A stretch of 64,000 nucleotides of DNA from the NCBI RefSeq assembly GCF_900496995.4, contig NC_044006.1, positions 59,875,204-59,939,203 on the forward strand. The letters are read 5' to 3'. Shown here in pieces: positions 20,301 to 37,010 of the stretch. The position numbers and the translations under genes are program-made. The notes beneath the pieces are model-generated. The model was not told the DNA's origin, ran no database searches, and saw nothing but the letters and a program-made list of their open reading frames with translations. The stretch's first letter is position 1. The number at the start of each line of letters is the position of its first letter. Source of the DNA: Aquila chrysaetos chrysaetos (Eukaryota; Chordata; Aves; Accipitriformes; Accipitridae).

Positions 20301-21890
20301 TACAGGACTGGCAAGAATTGGGTTAAAAGATACTAGGATAGAACAACATAAAAATAGAGTGTAACTGGAGAAAAGCAATCTAAAGAAAAGAGATTAATAC
20401 TTCCAGGAAAATGGAAAATTGCTGAGAAAAGGCACTTCAAGATAACTCTGTTTTCTGGCACTGCTTCCAAAACAACTTAGCTAGATTCCAGTGTTCTCCT
20501 ATGCAAATTGAGTATCTATGAAGGCATAACATACATCTTCCAGCAATAGAGTTGTCCCTTGTATAACCTCATGACTTAACAGTGGTGACAAACATAGGAA
20601 GCTTTACTAACAATAGGACCAATGGATTTTGGAACATGTGTAGTAGTGATTGAATGTAATGAAATTTTGTGTCATGATTAGAAACAAGATTTTCTGACCA
20701 TTATCAGAGGCCCAATCATGCAGGTCTAAGACAGACTGCTAGATCACAATACTACAAATCATTTTTGTCTCTTTCTACCGAAAAAAATGGGGAAACCTTT
20801 CATGCCACTCCTGAAACAAACTAAAGGTCATCCTTTGACTGGTATCCAAACCTTTTTCTCTCTTAATATTACAAATAAATTGCAGTACTGCAAACTCCAG
20901 TAATTTGTCAGTAGTTCATTGCTCCATGCAGCAGCAGAAGGAACAAGGCATGACAGCAAGTATTTAACTAATTGAGTCTAAGTTTCTGCAGATTTGGAAC
21001 CCCCTTTGTGTTCCAAAACAACCACTGGCAACAGTGAAAAGTTCAGCTGCGGATACACATGTGTTCCTGTGAAGCTACAAAGAAACCAAACACTAGTTCA
21101 TGGACAGAAAGGAAGGTAGTGTCAGCCAGTACTTAGTCACAGCAGAACTACAGCTGACAACGTTCAAGGGGCTTACAGAGCCTCACCCAGAACTGATGTC
21201 TCCTTTTTTCCTTCTGAAAAATATTGGGTGTTCTTCATGTTTTCTGCAAAATAAATGACAACCTTTCTTCAGTATCTCTTAGCACTTCCTTCTTTATTTT
21301 GGTTATCTTTCTCCTCTCATCATTTATGATAAGTGCAGAATATTGCTTTTTCTTAACAAAGAATTATCCTTTTAACACCACAAAATAATCCCACAGTATA
21401 GTTTATGGCTTGTGATCAATCTTTTCTAGCCAGCCACGTGTTGTTGAGGTGTTCTCACTGCTCTGAATATCCCTGGCAATCACAGCAGTCATTCCCTAGT
21501 GGTACAAACACTATCAGTTCAGGCACTGGGATAGCTAGATGTGGCTGACTTCCTGGAGGAAGGCATACAGCATTAAATGAATAATTGCAAAAGGTGTATG
21601 AAATTAGGATCAAAGCTTTTATTTTCCCTGCACTTTATTTTCATTTTGTTGAGAGCATGGGTAAAGTACCTGACGCTCTGCTTCTCTCACCTACAAGGTT
21701 TCAAATGAGGACCACTGAAAGAAGCACAGGAAGAGGTTGACTCATCCTCTTCAGTTATCTTGTGCTCTCTGGTGACTACAGCCAGAGCCAACTTTGGGGA
21801 GACTGAGCTGAGGTGACACACACCTACATTAACTTACATGTGTAAAATTTCTCCCTCCAGTCTAAGGAGAAAAAGAATTTAAGATACCTT

Positions 21891-21990
21891 TCACAGTACA
21901 CTTAGATACTGCATTCATCTCAGATCTATATATGTAGACTTCACAGTACACTTAGATACTGCATTCATCTCAGATCTATATATGTAGACT
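21891..21990 (+). repeat. Perfect 50-bp tandem duplication (2 copies)
   Basis: The 50 bases at 21,891-21,940 are repeated without a mismatch at 21,941-21,990. The unit is not low-complexity and is not repeated a third time. Perfect identity suggests a very recent duplication, a polymorphic site, or an assembly artefact. Confidence 0.97.
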
Positions 21991-30317: not shown

Positions 30318-31636
30318 CTGAAAGAAACAAACAAAAAGGAATACAATTACACAATATTCACAAACTAAAAGAAACAAATGTTTGAACACGTGAAATGAAG
30401 ATAGATAGGTCCATGTGCATATGTACAACACAGTAGGACACAAGGAGCGTCCTGCTTCATTTTTGTGCTCTGAAAAAGAGCCAGCCATAAGAGCAAGCCC
30501 TGCAGTCAGGAGCCACGACTTTATTTAGCTCTGTCTAGATTATCCTCTTCGTGCAAGAACAGATGTAGCTTCAGAAAATAAAATTAGATGAAAGAAATCC
30601 AAATGGGATGAGCTTCACTTCATTCCAGTGTGTCTAGCCATGTACTACAGTGTACTCTCTGGTTCGCTAAAATACTATTTCCAATGTTAATATGAGACTA
30701 CAGCAATAATATTCTTACTCTGAAATAAATGCTTTTCCTCCCACCCGCCAGAAACCTCACAGTAAAGGATTACGGGCCAAGTTGTACCATCCATTCTCAT
30801 ACTGTGAAGCACCCTCTTTCTCTTCAAATACTGCTGCTAAAATCAGTACTATTACTTGAAGAGAAGGGGAGTGGTCCAGTCAAGGGCAGTGATGTCAAGC
30901 CTTATGACAGCAGGATCACACAGGCTGATCTTTTTGCTGAAATGATTCATCACTGTTCCAGGAATCACAGTATCTAAGGAGACTTCTGTTCTTCTCTTAA
31001 AACCAATAATACGAAGTAATGTCCTTATTAGAAGATATAAAAATCTATTTATTAGTGGGCATTATCATATGCATGTTCAAAAGGATGGACTCTTACAATC
31101 TTGCATTAAGATCTACTTTCTGAGGTGAAACTTGCAATAGCAAGAGGAAAGTTATTTCACAAATACCTATATACTTATATATCTATCCCTGTGTACATCT
31201 TATATGCATGTGCACACTTTATGTCCTGCAAAACCTTGAGACAGATGGTCTCATATCCATGCAGTATTCACCAGACTAGCGTACATTCCACTTCCCTTCT
31301 GTCAGGCTTGCTGGCTTTGCTACATACATAATGTGGGGACTGCCTAACTTCCTTTTCCATCACAGAATCCCAAGGCTGGGATTTCTGAGGAAGACTCAAA
31401 CACCATGGAGAAGGAGTGTGTGAAGGGAGTGTGCTCATAAACCACACACCTTTGACAGTTTCATTAACTCGTATGTAAATCTTCTTTTAATCTTCAAAAC
31501 AGAAATTATTAATATAGATTATCCACATTTATATTCATACTGCAGTTCCTCGTAACAATCACAGTGCTTGGTAGGGAGACATAGCATGCTTCGTGCATCA
31601 ACCGCTGCAGAAACATGTTACCACACACTGTATTAT

Positions 31637-32510
31637 ACCTGGATGCTTCTGAAATGGCAAAACACTTGGTAAAGGTGTGGAGGCAACTCCCGGTAGTAGT
31701 TCAGCAGATGTCAGCAATGGAGATATCACTCAAGAAAGCCACTAATTTAGACTGAGCTCTGGTGGAATGTGTATTAATCTTGGAGGGTGTCTCCTTTTTG
31801 GTGTTTTCATAACAGGTTTCACTGGTGGTTATCCTGCTTGGCACTCCTGACTTTCAACCTCTCAGCTGTTGACACAAACAACTCTGGATCTGAAAGACCT
31901 AGTCCTGTGGAGGTAAAAAGTCAAAGGCCTCTTAAAAACAAAAGTCCAAAGATGCTCTGCCTCTAGAAATTTCTTCCTTCCTTCAAGAAAGAAAGTATAT
32001 CAGTCCTCTAGATAAGATGAAGAGACCAAAACCATGTTCAGGAGAACCTTATGACAGGTATGCAGGGACACATTTTCTTGAAGGAAGCCATTTCGATCCA
32101 AAAAGGGTTTGGCTCTCATCTGGCTTCCTGGATGGAGTCATAACTCGGAAAAACATTTCCAAAGACTAGCCCAGGACACCTGGGTCTGATGCCATAAGCA
32201 AATAACTTGATTCAGTTAGTGGACACCTTAAGGTTATGTGCAGGAGTAATGGTTTAACCATCCCCCAGGGAACTTGCACAGCTGGTGATATATGTAAATA
32301 TTTATGTGTATATATATACATATACACACATATATATATGATATAAAGAGAAGAGTTGACAAGGAAAGAACCTCACCCCACCTAAAGACGGAAATGAACT
32401 CCTTTAGTACCAGCAAACAGTCCAGGATGTCCACTATGACCTGACATCAGCCTGACACCCTGACCCATTCTGCCAGTTTTGTGCATCTCTTGCTGCTCTT
32501 CATACTGTTG
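31637..32510 (-). mobile_element. Decayed DIRS-like tyrosine recombinase relic
   Basis: Read on the minus strand, with several frame changes and stops, pieces of a DIRS-type tyrosine recombinase appear in order. QQYEEQQEM (32,510-32,484) and KLAEW (32,479-32,465) sit where the family has a Y..KW..F..WC start. DILDCLLVLKE (32,431-32,399) matches the N-terminal DILDFLL.LK motif. SLEMFFRVMTP follows at about 32.16 kb and FYLHRTRSFR at 31,918-31,889. Then comes CYENTKKETPSKINTHSTRA (31,814-31,755) with the catalytic HxxR box as HSTR, followed by AFLSDISIADIC, a stop, and LHTFTKCF (31,682-31,659), where the catalytic Tyr would be Phe. The span of about 870 bp fits a recombinase of about 280-300 residues. 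Family assignment is from remembered motifs. Confidence 0.65.
32284..32346 (+). repeat. TA/TG microsatellite
   Basis: AT-rich dinucleotide stretches (TATATATATACATATACACACATATATATATG-type, best at 32,305-32,345). It interrupts the recombinase relic just after its N-terminal motif, so it probably grew within the dead element. Confidence 0.85.
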
Positions 32511-32639
32511 ACAAGAACTTTCCTCCCAAAGCAAAAGCACAGATCTTGTAGCGACAAGACCTATCCAGCACCTATGGCATGACATGGGACATACCAAAAC
32601 CGACATGACTGCAAAGTCCTGCATTAGCAGACTGTGTCA

Positions 32640-33190
32640 GGGCTGGATGCTCCCTGAGTGAAGGGTAGGCATGAGCTGAGTACAATAACACAGCTGGCAG
32701 TGCAGGGGCCTCACCAGCCAGGGCCCAGCCCCACAGTGCCCCAGCGAGGGAAGCAGGCAGACTTGAGTCTTATTCAAACAAGAGTGCGTATCAGCAGGTG
32801 AGTTCACGGTGAGGAGGCAGATCTGAGGTCAAGCTGGGATGTCAATCCACAGGCTGGGATTGGGTCCAGTGAGAGTAACCATGATCAAACACAGCCCACT
32901 GATGTCCAGGCAGGTCCATAGTGATGAGACAGGTCCAAGGTTAAACTGGGAAGTCAGTGTGTGAGTTAGGGTCTGGATCAACACCTGTAGTAATGTACAG
33001 GCATGGCTGTAGCTGAGCTGAAGATTGGTATCCATACCAATGGATACCTGAGCAGGGCTCAGGCATGGACTAAAAGCCCAGGGTTGAGCTGAACTGAGGC
33101 TCCTGTGCCCACAGGTGTGGGTAGGGGCCCCAAGTGACACAGGTCATGGCCATTAAGGCCTATTACTGCACGCAGGGCCATGACTGATTG
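32640..33190. repeat. GC-richer repeat with two diverged ~110-bp units
   Basis: The segment is clearly richer in G and C than its surroundings. A stretch starting near 32,811 (GTGAGGAGGCAG, then AGGTCAAGCTGGGATGTCA) recurs in diverged form near 32,920 (GTGATGAGACAG, then AGGTTAAACTGGGAAGTCA), a period of about 110 bp. The minus-strand 103-codon open frame over it looks like a by-product of the repeat. I suspect part of an LTR or an old minisatellite but cannot name the family. The boundaries are approximate. Confidence 0.45.
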
Positions 33191-33389
33191 AGAGAAAAGC
33201 ATAGTCCTGGGACATTTCATTGATAGACAAATACATTTCTTTGCTACGACAGCTGCTTCAGCTATCCTATCATGAGCAGCAATAGGAATTCTCTTGCTTA
33301 CTCACAAGTGGAAATCATAAAATTAGACAGAATGAGGGGACAGCAGCCTCCCTGGCCATGTCATTGGGATTAAACCAATAGGGAGGAGC

Positions 33390-33497
33390 AGACTTTACTA
33401 ACTTGTGAGAAAAAAATCCTAGACATTATAGACGTTAATAGAAAATGGGGCTGAGGAGACCATGAAAAGTCATCAAGACTATTCCGTTGGCCCGAAG
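33390..33497 (-). pseudogene. Possible RT scrap of the DIRS-like element
   Basis: On the minus strand, LRANGI (33,497-33,480) is followed after a frame change by SLDDF (LDD at 33,477-33,469), and 47 nt further by LGFF..HK..KS (33,422-33,390). DIRS reverse transcriptases have LR..GI....YLDDWL and then LGF..N..KS. The order and rough spacing fit, and it lies upstream of the recombinase in the expected gag-RT-YR order. Each match is short and chance cannot be excluded. Confidence 0.25.
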
Positions 33498-33722
33498 AAA
33501 CAACTTAAAACTATCCCTCACAGATACCTGATTTACCTGTTCTTGAACATGGTGAGGACTTCAGAACTTCCCCAGGCAATGTGTCTCAGTGCCTCATTAT
33601 CTAAGAGCAAAAAACTAAGTTAGAAAACTTCTGCTGCTATTTGACCTGAACTTGTTTTGCAGTGGACATAGAAAAAGCTTTATTTTCTTCTCTTTTTAAG
33701 TTCTTCTATATTTGAAGATGGA

Positions 33723-34090
33723 TGTGTTTCCTCAGTTTCCTCTTCTTCAGATTAAACAACCCCTATTTATTAAAAATTTTCTCACAAGTTATATTTTCTA
33801 GGTTTCTGATCATTCTTTTGTTCTCCTCTAGAACCTGTCCGGTTGGTCAGAATCCTTCTCCAGTTGTGGTGCCCCAAACCAGAGGGAAGCCTTTTCCAGT
33901 GTCGAGAAGAATAAAAGAACCACTTTGTATGCTTTACAAATAATCCTCCTTTCTATATATTCCAGTACAACAGTTACATCTTTTATAAAGGCATGCTGTT
34001 GTCTCATGTGCAACTTGTGATCCACCTATTGTCTCCAGTTCAGAAATTTTGCTTAGTCAGTCCTTCCTCACTTGCGTTTATGCAAAAGAT
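33723..34090 (-). mobile_element. Old CR1-family LINE relic
   Basis: On the + strand, 'cctcagtttcctcttcttcagattaaacaa', 'tctaggtttctgatcattcttttgttctcctctagaacct' and 'ctcatgtgcaacttgtgatccacctat' follow, in order, the antisense of an old amniote CR1 ORF2 consensus. No frame longer than about 70 codons survives. It covers a more 5' part of the LINE than the 11.5-kb relic, so the two need not come from one event. Ends are approximate. Confidence 0.65.
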
Positions 34091-35263
34091 TACTTCTATA
34101 TAAACACAGAAGTTAGTATTCATCTTTATTGTCATTACATGTCATTATTTGAACCAAATTCTTAAAATAATTTCTTAAGATCATAATACTATCTTGTAGT
34201 ATTTTTCCAGGTAGTATCACTAGCATTAAATGCTAATTCCATCTTTTAAATCATGAATTAAATATTGTATAGTCCCTGGAGAACATGCTTGAATGCATCA
34301 AGCCTGACAGTGAAGCATAATTAACTGTTTCTTGAGAACAGCTTTCCAACCAGTTATACAACTGTCTAATAGAAATTTAATCTTGTCTACATTTCCTTAT
34401 CACAAATGACTCATATGAAGGAAAGAAGATTTAGATGGATCCAGACATGCCTGAAGGGTTTGTCTGGCCACAAGAGTGATAGTCACCTGCACATGACTTC
34501 AGCTGAAGCGTAAGATCTCATATTTATTGACTAACTTGAGAAGGAAGGATATTGGTGGACTCCGAAACTGTCTGACCAGCATTCCGTTATTCTTGCCTCT
34601 TCTCCTCAGAGTCAAGGCGTCCAACAGTTGCAAATGATATGCATTGGAATATTTGGTCCTTTGAAAGTCCCTTTAATGTGACAGTTGTCTAGGTCAGGAA
34701 ACACAGATTTTGTTTTGTATTATGCATATTCTCATTACTTCCAGAACATTGATGAGGATTTTCTGTGCTATGGAGAAATCCTGTATGTAAGGACTTTGTA
34801 GTGGAAAAGCCACTACAAAATATTTAAATATAAACACATTTTGTATATATAAATAAGCAGAGATCCTGATCTTTGAGAGTGATACATTAATCCCTGTTTT
34901 GATTAGGCAGGGTTACTGTGACTAAAGTCACCATACTTTATTTAACTGAAGGCATTCAAAATGATTTGCCATCCTCTGGTACCAGAAACCATCTCCTACA
35001 AAATGACATGATGTGCTGAGAAACTGACTGTATTGCTGCCTATCCCCCACCTTTCTCTTGTTGAAGCAGGTTACTGATAGAAGGGTTCCAGAAAAGGGAC
35101 GGCATAGCAGAGTAGTAGAGGAACAAACTGCCAAGAAATCTTTTGATATACAGTATCCAAGACTAGATAGTGGTGATGTGTAACTAAAACTGGTTGAAAT
35201 AGATTAGCTTATCCTTGAGCAGATGGATAGGAGATAAAAGAAGAAAGCAATGGATACAACAAA

Positions 35264-35433
35264 TTAGTACATTATCAGTAATGTCACCATCATCCTAAAT
35301 GCACAGCTGGCCGCATCCAGCATGTCTTGCGAAAGGTCACAGTTATGTGAAGGACCATATTCAGCTTCACCACAAAATCCACCTGTGAGCTGGTGGGCAG
35401 GAGACTGGTGAAACTCATCAGTTTGTGGTGCTA
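35264..35433 (-). pseudogene. Possible DIRS Gag scrap
   Basis: A 56-codon open stretch on the minus strand includes QDMLDAASCAFRMMVT, which resembles the DALDAADSAAR.MAT..VMRR core of DIRS Gag proteins. It lies 5' of the RT-like and recombinase pieces on the same strand. A second short match, LVARQTLQACLD at 34,474-34,439, fits the same Gag region, so at least one of the two is chance or a second copy. This is a weak call. Confidence 0.2.
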
Positions 35434-36049
35434 CGGCAGTAACTGATAGCTAGAAAATGATAGGAAGCTAAAGGATGCTGAAAAACAGATCTTTTTTCAA
35501 GTATGTGTGTTTGAAGCTCCTGTACCACATAGATCAAGACTGTTTTGTCCTTTCAGATATATCTGAGGTAATTGCAGAGGAGGAAACCACATGAAAAGAA
35601 AAGTAATCCGGTCTTCTGGCATGCATTTAATATTTCTGTCTATTTTTGGAGCTTGGAGAACAGGAAATAGGAATATTTACTGACATGTTGACTAGACTGA
35701 GGATAGCTTAACTTCTGAGTAGACCCATCTTTACCAATACAATCTGTGAAGTGCATCCAGAAATCTGATAAAGGTGCTAATATATCTTACAGTAAGACAT
35801 AGAAAACAGTCGGTTTTTTAAAATATGTCCTGGAAAGATTTCTTATATAGTTCAAACAAAGAAGGGGCGGTGGCTCAACTCTCAGAGTTTGAAACTCTCT
35901 TCTACTGAGTCGTTGCAAGAGAATCAGGAGCTTTCATTGCTGATGGATCAGAGGGATGGTTGGGAGCTGATAGATATGGATGACTCTGATTCATCCTGTG
36001 CTTACAGCTGTTTCTACCAGGTAGCTAGCAGGAAGTAGGCTGGTGCAAT

Positions 36050-37010
36050 ATAGAATCATAGAATGTCTCAAGTTGGAAGGGGCCTATAAGGATCATTAAG
36101 TCCAATTCCCTGCTCCTCGCAGGACGACCTAAAACTAAACCATACGACTAAGAGCATCATCCCGATGCTCCTTGAACTCTGACAGGCTTGGTGCCATGAC
36201 CACTTCCCTGGGGAGCCTGTTCCAGTGACCAACCACCCTCTCAGTGAAGAACCTTTTCCTAATGTCCAATCTGAACTTTCCCTGATGCAGCTTCATTCCA
36301 TTTCCTTGTGTCCTATCACTGGTCACCAGAGAGAGGAGATCAGTGCCTCCCCCACCGCTGTCCCACTTGAGGAAGTTGTAGACTGTGATGAGGTCACCCC
36401 TCAGCCTTCTCTTCTCCATACTGAACAAACCAAGTGACCTCAACCGCTCCTCGTAAGTCTTGCCCTCGAGACCTTTCACCATCTTGGTCGCCCTCCTCTG
36501 GACACACTCTAACAGTTTGATGTCCTTCTTGCATTGAGGTGCCCAAAACTGCACTCAGTACATGCCAGTGCAGGGTAGAGTGGGACAATCAGCTCTCTTG
36601 ACCGGCTAGCTATGCTGTGCTTGATGCACCCCAGGAGTCGGTTGGCCCTTTTGGCTGCCAGGGCACACTGTTGACTCATATTCAACTTGCCATCAACCCA
36701 AACCCCCAAATGTCTTTCCGTGGGGCTTTTCTCCAGCCTCTCATCCCCCAATTTGTACGTATAACCAGGACTACCCCATCCCAGGTGGAGAATCCAGCAC
36801 TTGCTCCTGTTAAATTTCATACAGTTGGTGATTGCCCATCTCTCTAGCCTATCCAGATCTCTCTGTAAGGCCTCTCTACCCTCAAGGGAGTCCACAGCTC
36901 CTCCTGGTTTAGTGTCATTGGCAAACTTACTTATGTACATTCAATTCCTGTGTCCAGATCATTTACAAAAATGTTAAAGAGCACTGGCCCTAAAATTGTA
37001 CTCTGTGTTT
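36050..37010 (-). mobile_element. CR1 LINE, 5'-truncated, frameshifted
   Basis: The 3' end lies at about 36,050, where the + strand starts ATAGAATCATAGAATG, the two octamers typical of avian CR1. Two minus-strand frames (36,940-36,509 and 36,554-36,135) cover the end of ORF2: the last part of the reverse transcriptase and the C-terminal region ([25 protein letters not shown]). They are in different frames, so a frameshift lies at about 36.53 kb. The RT box that should read FADD reads FAND (Asn codon at 36,917-36,919). The 5' break is at about 37,010. The element is dead on arrival or soon after. Confidence 0.93.

Follow-up and report, generated by a model that had tools for sequence, protein, structure and literature searches.

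A probable DIRS-like tyrosine-recombinase relic in an intron of a bird-like genome

Several short peptides resembling parts of a DIRS-type tyrosine recombinase lie on one strand of a 64 kb stretch of a bird-like genome (G000:C3:59875204-59939203; this whole stretch is called the window below, and positions are given within it). The question raised by this locus is whether these peptides are remnants of one recombinase gene and, if so, which kind of element it came from and how old the insertion may be. The preliminary description had proposed a DIRS relic at 31637..32510, with the remark that DIRS elements are not usually listed among bird transposons. The remark agrees with the accessible text of PMC5753468 (2018), where DIRS was found in the anole and not detected in bird genomes.

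Motifs and frames of the window copy

The three peptides originally quoted were all located on the minus strand of that interval: DILDCLLVLKE at 32431-32399, FYLHRTRSF at 31918-31892, and NTHSTRAQS, with the HSTR box inside it, at 31775-31749. On the same strand are LSLSTL (32368-32351), HTFTKCF (31679-31659) and MFLQRL (31616-31599). One frame is common to DILDCLLVLKE, LSLSTL and FYLHRTRSF, while VSTAERLK is in a second frame and the C-terminal block, from NTHSTRAQS to MFLQRL, is in a third. The copy has undergone at least one frame change, or two if the weak middle stretch described below is right.

The C-terminal block is interrupted by an in-frame TGA. Set against the family pattern, it retains HSTR, the Trp position is occupied by Gly and the Tyr position by Phe. 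The catalytic tyrosine is thus absent from the window copy, and KHY is retained in a relative from elsewhere in the genome, L021. Phe at the catalytic Tyr, stops and frameshifts had been described beforehand, and the Phe, the in-frame TGA and the frame change were all recovered here. With Gly at Trp, Phe at Tyr, a stop in the frame and a change of frame, no active recombinase can be encoded by this copy, which is a dead relic of a recombinase gene and not a working element. In a live element, the RNA would be reverse transcribed to give circular DNA, and the recombinase would presumably integrate this circle without target-site duplication, its catalytic Tyr being assisted by the HSTR Arg and by a Trp.

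Regarding the location, peptides of HPRT-family exons were found on the strand of the relic at about 46.0, 28.8, 28.3 and 26.3 kb. The relic is flanked by the exons at 46.0 and 28.8 kb and therefore lies within an intron of that gene, which we take to be PRTFDC1. Elsewhere in the window, an exact 50-base unit occurs twice in tandem at 21890-21990 (score 202).

Relatives in the same genome

The genome, of 1.23 Gb, was searched with the C-terminal piece of the window as a protein query. At least nine non-self places reached E<=10, led by matches with E values of 0.024, 0.048 and 0.11. Several of these matches, read in frame, show the same block, L021 best of all (LDICREATWSSVHTFTKHYALAEAS). When L021 was used as the query of the genome protein search, at least 18 places were obtained (itself, the window and 16 others). 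The window was its fourth best non-self match (E 0.043), and at least 13 non-self rows fell below E 0.7, compared with fewer than one expected. The reversed L021 query, which was the one reversed control, gave none at E<=10 among the matches listed for the genome, a blank that by itself says little. A third query, L038, matched at least 17 non-self places, of which the two strongest had E values of 2.2e-4 and 4.6e-4. It recovered L021, L032, L035, L023 and L026; the window was not among its matches listed at E<=10. Pooling the three queries gives 45 loci, from which nine are subtracted (self, the window and repeats of earlier places), leaving at least 36 distinct places.

A profile was built from 12 of these relatives, and 12 of the 24 other places had a domain E no higher than 0.015, the best of the reversed-sequence null being 0.5. 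It should be noted that L040, L044 and L046, which are among those 12 scored places, came through the L021 query itself. Of the 36 places, the remaining 12 fail to rise above the null in this profile. The number that holds up is hence about two dozen relics of the recombinase domain in this genome (the 12 in the profile and the 12 scored by it), and not 36.

The relatives recovered by the three queries are 29-54% identical at the protein level, and a stop was found inside the match in 15 of the 42 non-self rows tallied. In the DNA search of the genome with the interval, other places matched only within positions 158-237 of the query, an AT/CA-rich simple repeat. The likeness among the relics is at the level of protein, not DNA. 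No relative was detected in viral contigs or prokaryote genomes at the sensitivity of those searches.

Moreover, a profile was built from 11 relatives located elsewhere in the genome, leaving out both the window and L021, and was run against the 64 kb window translated piecewise in all six reading frames. It scores the C-terminal catalytic block (31605-31772, minus strand) at E 9.2e-13, the next piece being at E 1.3; this value is partly circular, because the relatives were found via L021 and L021 was found via the window. In the 11 columns outside the coverage of the L021 query, the score of the window is reached by 0.08% of 5000 shuffles.

A second motif was then sought in 34 of the 36 places (L027 and L028 were omitted, as neither reads as this block), within a span of -218 ± 30 nt from the anchor Cys. 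This motif is FYL..RT (LTFYLHRTRSFRS), represented in the window by FYLHRTRSF (31892..31918, minus strand). Five of the 34 relatives lie above the 99th percentile of the null, with about 0.3 expected, at distances of -216 to -242, and eight lie above the 95th percentile, with 1.7 expected. An earlier run with 22 places and a wider span had given four of the same leading relatives. The stretch that follows FYL..RT and precedes HSTR (ELFVSTAERLKVRSAKQ; 31834..31884, minus strand, in a frame different from those of both motifs) is weak: with its spacing kept, 4/34 relatives pass the 95th percentile of the null, where 1.7 would be expected.

The proposed N-terminal core of the recombinase, DILDCLLVLKE...LSLSTL (32351..32431, minus strand), is more tentative. 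The DILDCLLVLKE motif, sought at -720 ± 60, lies above the 95th percentile of the null in 3/34 places, among which L063, collinear at -743, stands out (null fraction 0.0008, 34 loci tested); used as a query against its own genome, DILDCLLVLKE recovered only itself, with no other match listed at E<=10. The motifs first described have fared unequally: the C-terminal block and FYLHRTRSF are borne out by the profile and by the relatives, and DILDCLLVLKE is weaker, with one convincing relative.

Assignment to DIRS and a gag-like frame

HSTR is given in the accessible part of PMC3266345 as the tyrosine-recombinase motif of DIRS1-like elements, present in 13 of 28. A comparison was also made with the recombinase Cre of phage P1. 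In hhalign, the 12 relatives (window excluded) matched Cre at P 0.00088 with a probability of 23%; in this weak match the His of HxxR and the Trp are in register with the profile of the relatives, and the window piece runs ungapped from HSTR to the Trp position. Cre is an intact phage enzyme, unlike the relic, and the weak match serves as a register check only. Fixed in this register, the window piece outscores all but 0.055% of 20000 shuffles, and the block was not singled out when the C-terminus of Cre was scanned freely along the window.

Database searches gave little. Pfam returned no recombinase or reverse transcriptase (RT) match in the window frames and no recombinase match in L021 and three other relatives, PDB searches yielded no recombinase match, and the Rfam scan gave no useful match. 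The lack of any match to tyrosine-recombinase profiles, which the preliminary description had named as evidence against itself, was thus found for Pfam, a test that is insensitive here because L021, the best-preserved relative, misses as well. The proposal of a DIRS-type tyrosine recombinase relic is supported by the similar relics in the genome, by HSTR as described in the available portion of PMC3266345, and by the weak in-register match to Cre. The DIRS-type class is accordingly placed by this published description, the same-genome relatives and the Cre register, and not by direct comparison with a DIRS protein. Taken together, the interval very probably represents the degraded 3' portion of a tyrosine-recombinase gene that belonged to a DIRS1-like retrotransposon, and it lies in a bird-like genome, inside an intron of an HPRT-family gene.

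Other parts of such an element were also sought. Pfam showed no RT, RNase H or methyltransferase in the three minus-strand frames of 31001-36500, a search in which the recombinase relic is missed too. With regard to inverted terminal repeats and internal complementary regions, only AT-rich palindromes and short imperfect pairs were found. The segment at 32635-33184 was rejected as part of the element, being a separate dispersed repeat with at least 44 other rows at 65-89% identity (the best 39 of 138 candidate other places were scored). When nine copies of this repeat were compared by blastn with the window at 30-37 kb, nothing matched beyond the repeat except the window piece at 36377-36682, to which L013 matched. 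The repeat contains internal quasi-repeats of roughly 110 bp. The region at about 36050-37000 is presumably the end of a CR1-like LINE, part of it common to L013; this CR1-type end, near 36.1 kb, is what makes the host look like a bird.

Furthermore, the genome was searched for DIRS gag, from which LAP2alpha (PF11560) derives according to the accessible text of PMC4495291. PF11560 matched at C5:31991285-31991896 (E 1.7e-11), where a stop-free frame of 645 codons is found (G000:C5:31990178-31992115, plus strand; L072 394-2331), itself matching PF11560 at E 3.6e-13 and the LAP2alpha structure 2V0X at E 2.9e-12. The frame opens at TTG and its first ATG is codon 34; the chance of 649 open codons in random sequence of the same base composition is about 4e-17. 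No close second copy was found in the genome (best other E 0.17). The recombinase profile gave nothing significant in the 20 kb around the frame (best E 0.54), and no RT was present in the plus-strand frames around it. Some 6 kb further downstream, on the strand of the frame, there is an exon with a FIGEY domain, which we presume to read like NRCAM.

The gag-like frame was also compared with the window, in a search with little sensitivity to decayed copies, and nothing significant was matched: the best E was 0.43, at 186-358, and 14 residues at 32120-32079 matched at E 7.7. An open piece at 34640-34400 (LLKLVNKYEILRFS..TLVARQTLQACLD) looked like DIRS gag by eye and was discarded, its best non-self match in the genome having E 1.8 and the gag frame being unmatched. 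Apart from these, a weak second DIRS-gag-like match was noted in the genome (L073, G000:C7:17417614-17417805, minus strand; E 0.21), with a GGRLFG stretch, which may be a decayed copy.

An intact gag-like frame amid otherwise broken DIRS relics suggests a candidate domesticated gag. On this reading of the sequences, the chances are roughly even that this bird lineage kept DIRS fossils and also domesticated one single-copy DIRS gag, the candidate frame, in parallel to mammalian LAP2alpha and ZNF451.

The gag-like frame also bears on whether the relic could derive not from a DIRS1-like element but from one of the other tyrosine-recombinase groups (Ngaro, PAT-like or Crypton). The well-supported part is the C-terminal block only, and Ngaro fossils occur alongside DIRS in human according to PMC9004415. 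Such an origin is nevertheless unlikely, since HSTR is exactly as named for DIRS in the accessible part of PMC3266345, and the PF11560 frame in the same genome indicates that DIRS sequence was in the lineage.

Age of the insertion and DIRS in birds and other vertebrates

A DIRS1-like origin leaves room for different ages. A young insertion, that is, a late foothold of DIRS in this bird lineage, is compatible with the interpretation as a DIRS1-like relic, but its probability is slighter still: the DNA search of the genome found no close copy, the relatives are as divergent and as often interrupted by stops as described above, and in the window copy two catalytic residues have been replaced, the frame is broken and a stop has arisen. 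An old insertion is favoured by how decayed and divergent the copies are, and by the pre-amniote DIRS fossils published in the accessible part of PMC9004415. Finally, recombinase-like motifs could have lined up in the intron by chance, a reading for which the empty Pfam and PDB searches and the weak evidence of lone motifs of 9-11 residues could be adduced; it is highly improbable in view of the profile E of 9.2e-13, the empty reversed control, the 0.08% for the columns outside selection and the second motif at fixed spacing in the relatives.

Concerning birds, the accessible text of the chicken survey PMC5006616 gives no DIRS at a strict threshold of RT plus recombinase (or methyltransferase). 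Pooled Gypsy/DIRS1 rows, which may or may not include DIRS, stand at 111 in the spotted owl assembly (PMC5629816), 137 in that of the sand martin (PMC13365828) and 25 in that of the chukar (PMC10837146). No report of DIRS fossils in birds was found in the open-licence literature. About two dozen relics in one bird-like genome would show that this lineage once carried DIRS and later lost it, as the available text of PMC9004415 argues for tetrapods generally, and also that surveys with strict thresholds miss DIRS. The intron copy, if common to other birds or crocodilians, would date the insertion.

Compared with the DIRS1-like retrotransposons of turtle, anole, Xenopus and zebrafish, the window relic shares the HSTR box (PMC3266345, accessible part) and the C-terminal recombinase block. 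These vertebrate elements carry ORFs for gag, RT, RNase and recombinase, according to the accessible text of PMC4495291; unlike them, the window has only the broken recombinase end, and RT, gag and terminal repeats were not recovered. A further parallel is offered by the DIRS protein fossils of human in PMC9004415, some of which were detected initially in turtle or alligator before being mapped to human, with 37 pre-amniote relics in one table and 5 pre-tetrapod relics in another. They are likewise old, short and broken relics of DIRS proteins, and differ in being dated by orthology and in not coming from a bird-like genome. DIRS fossils as such are already known from the human work, as the available part of PMC9004415 presents it, and this bird-like genome adds to them.
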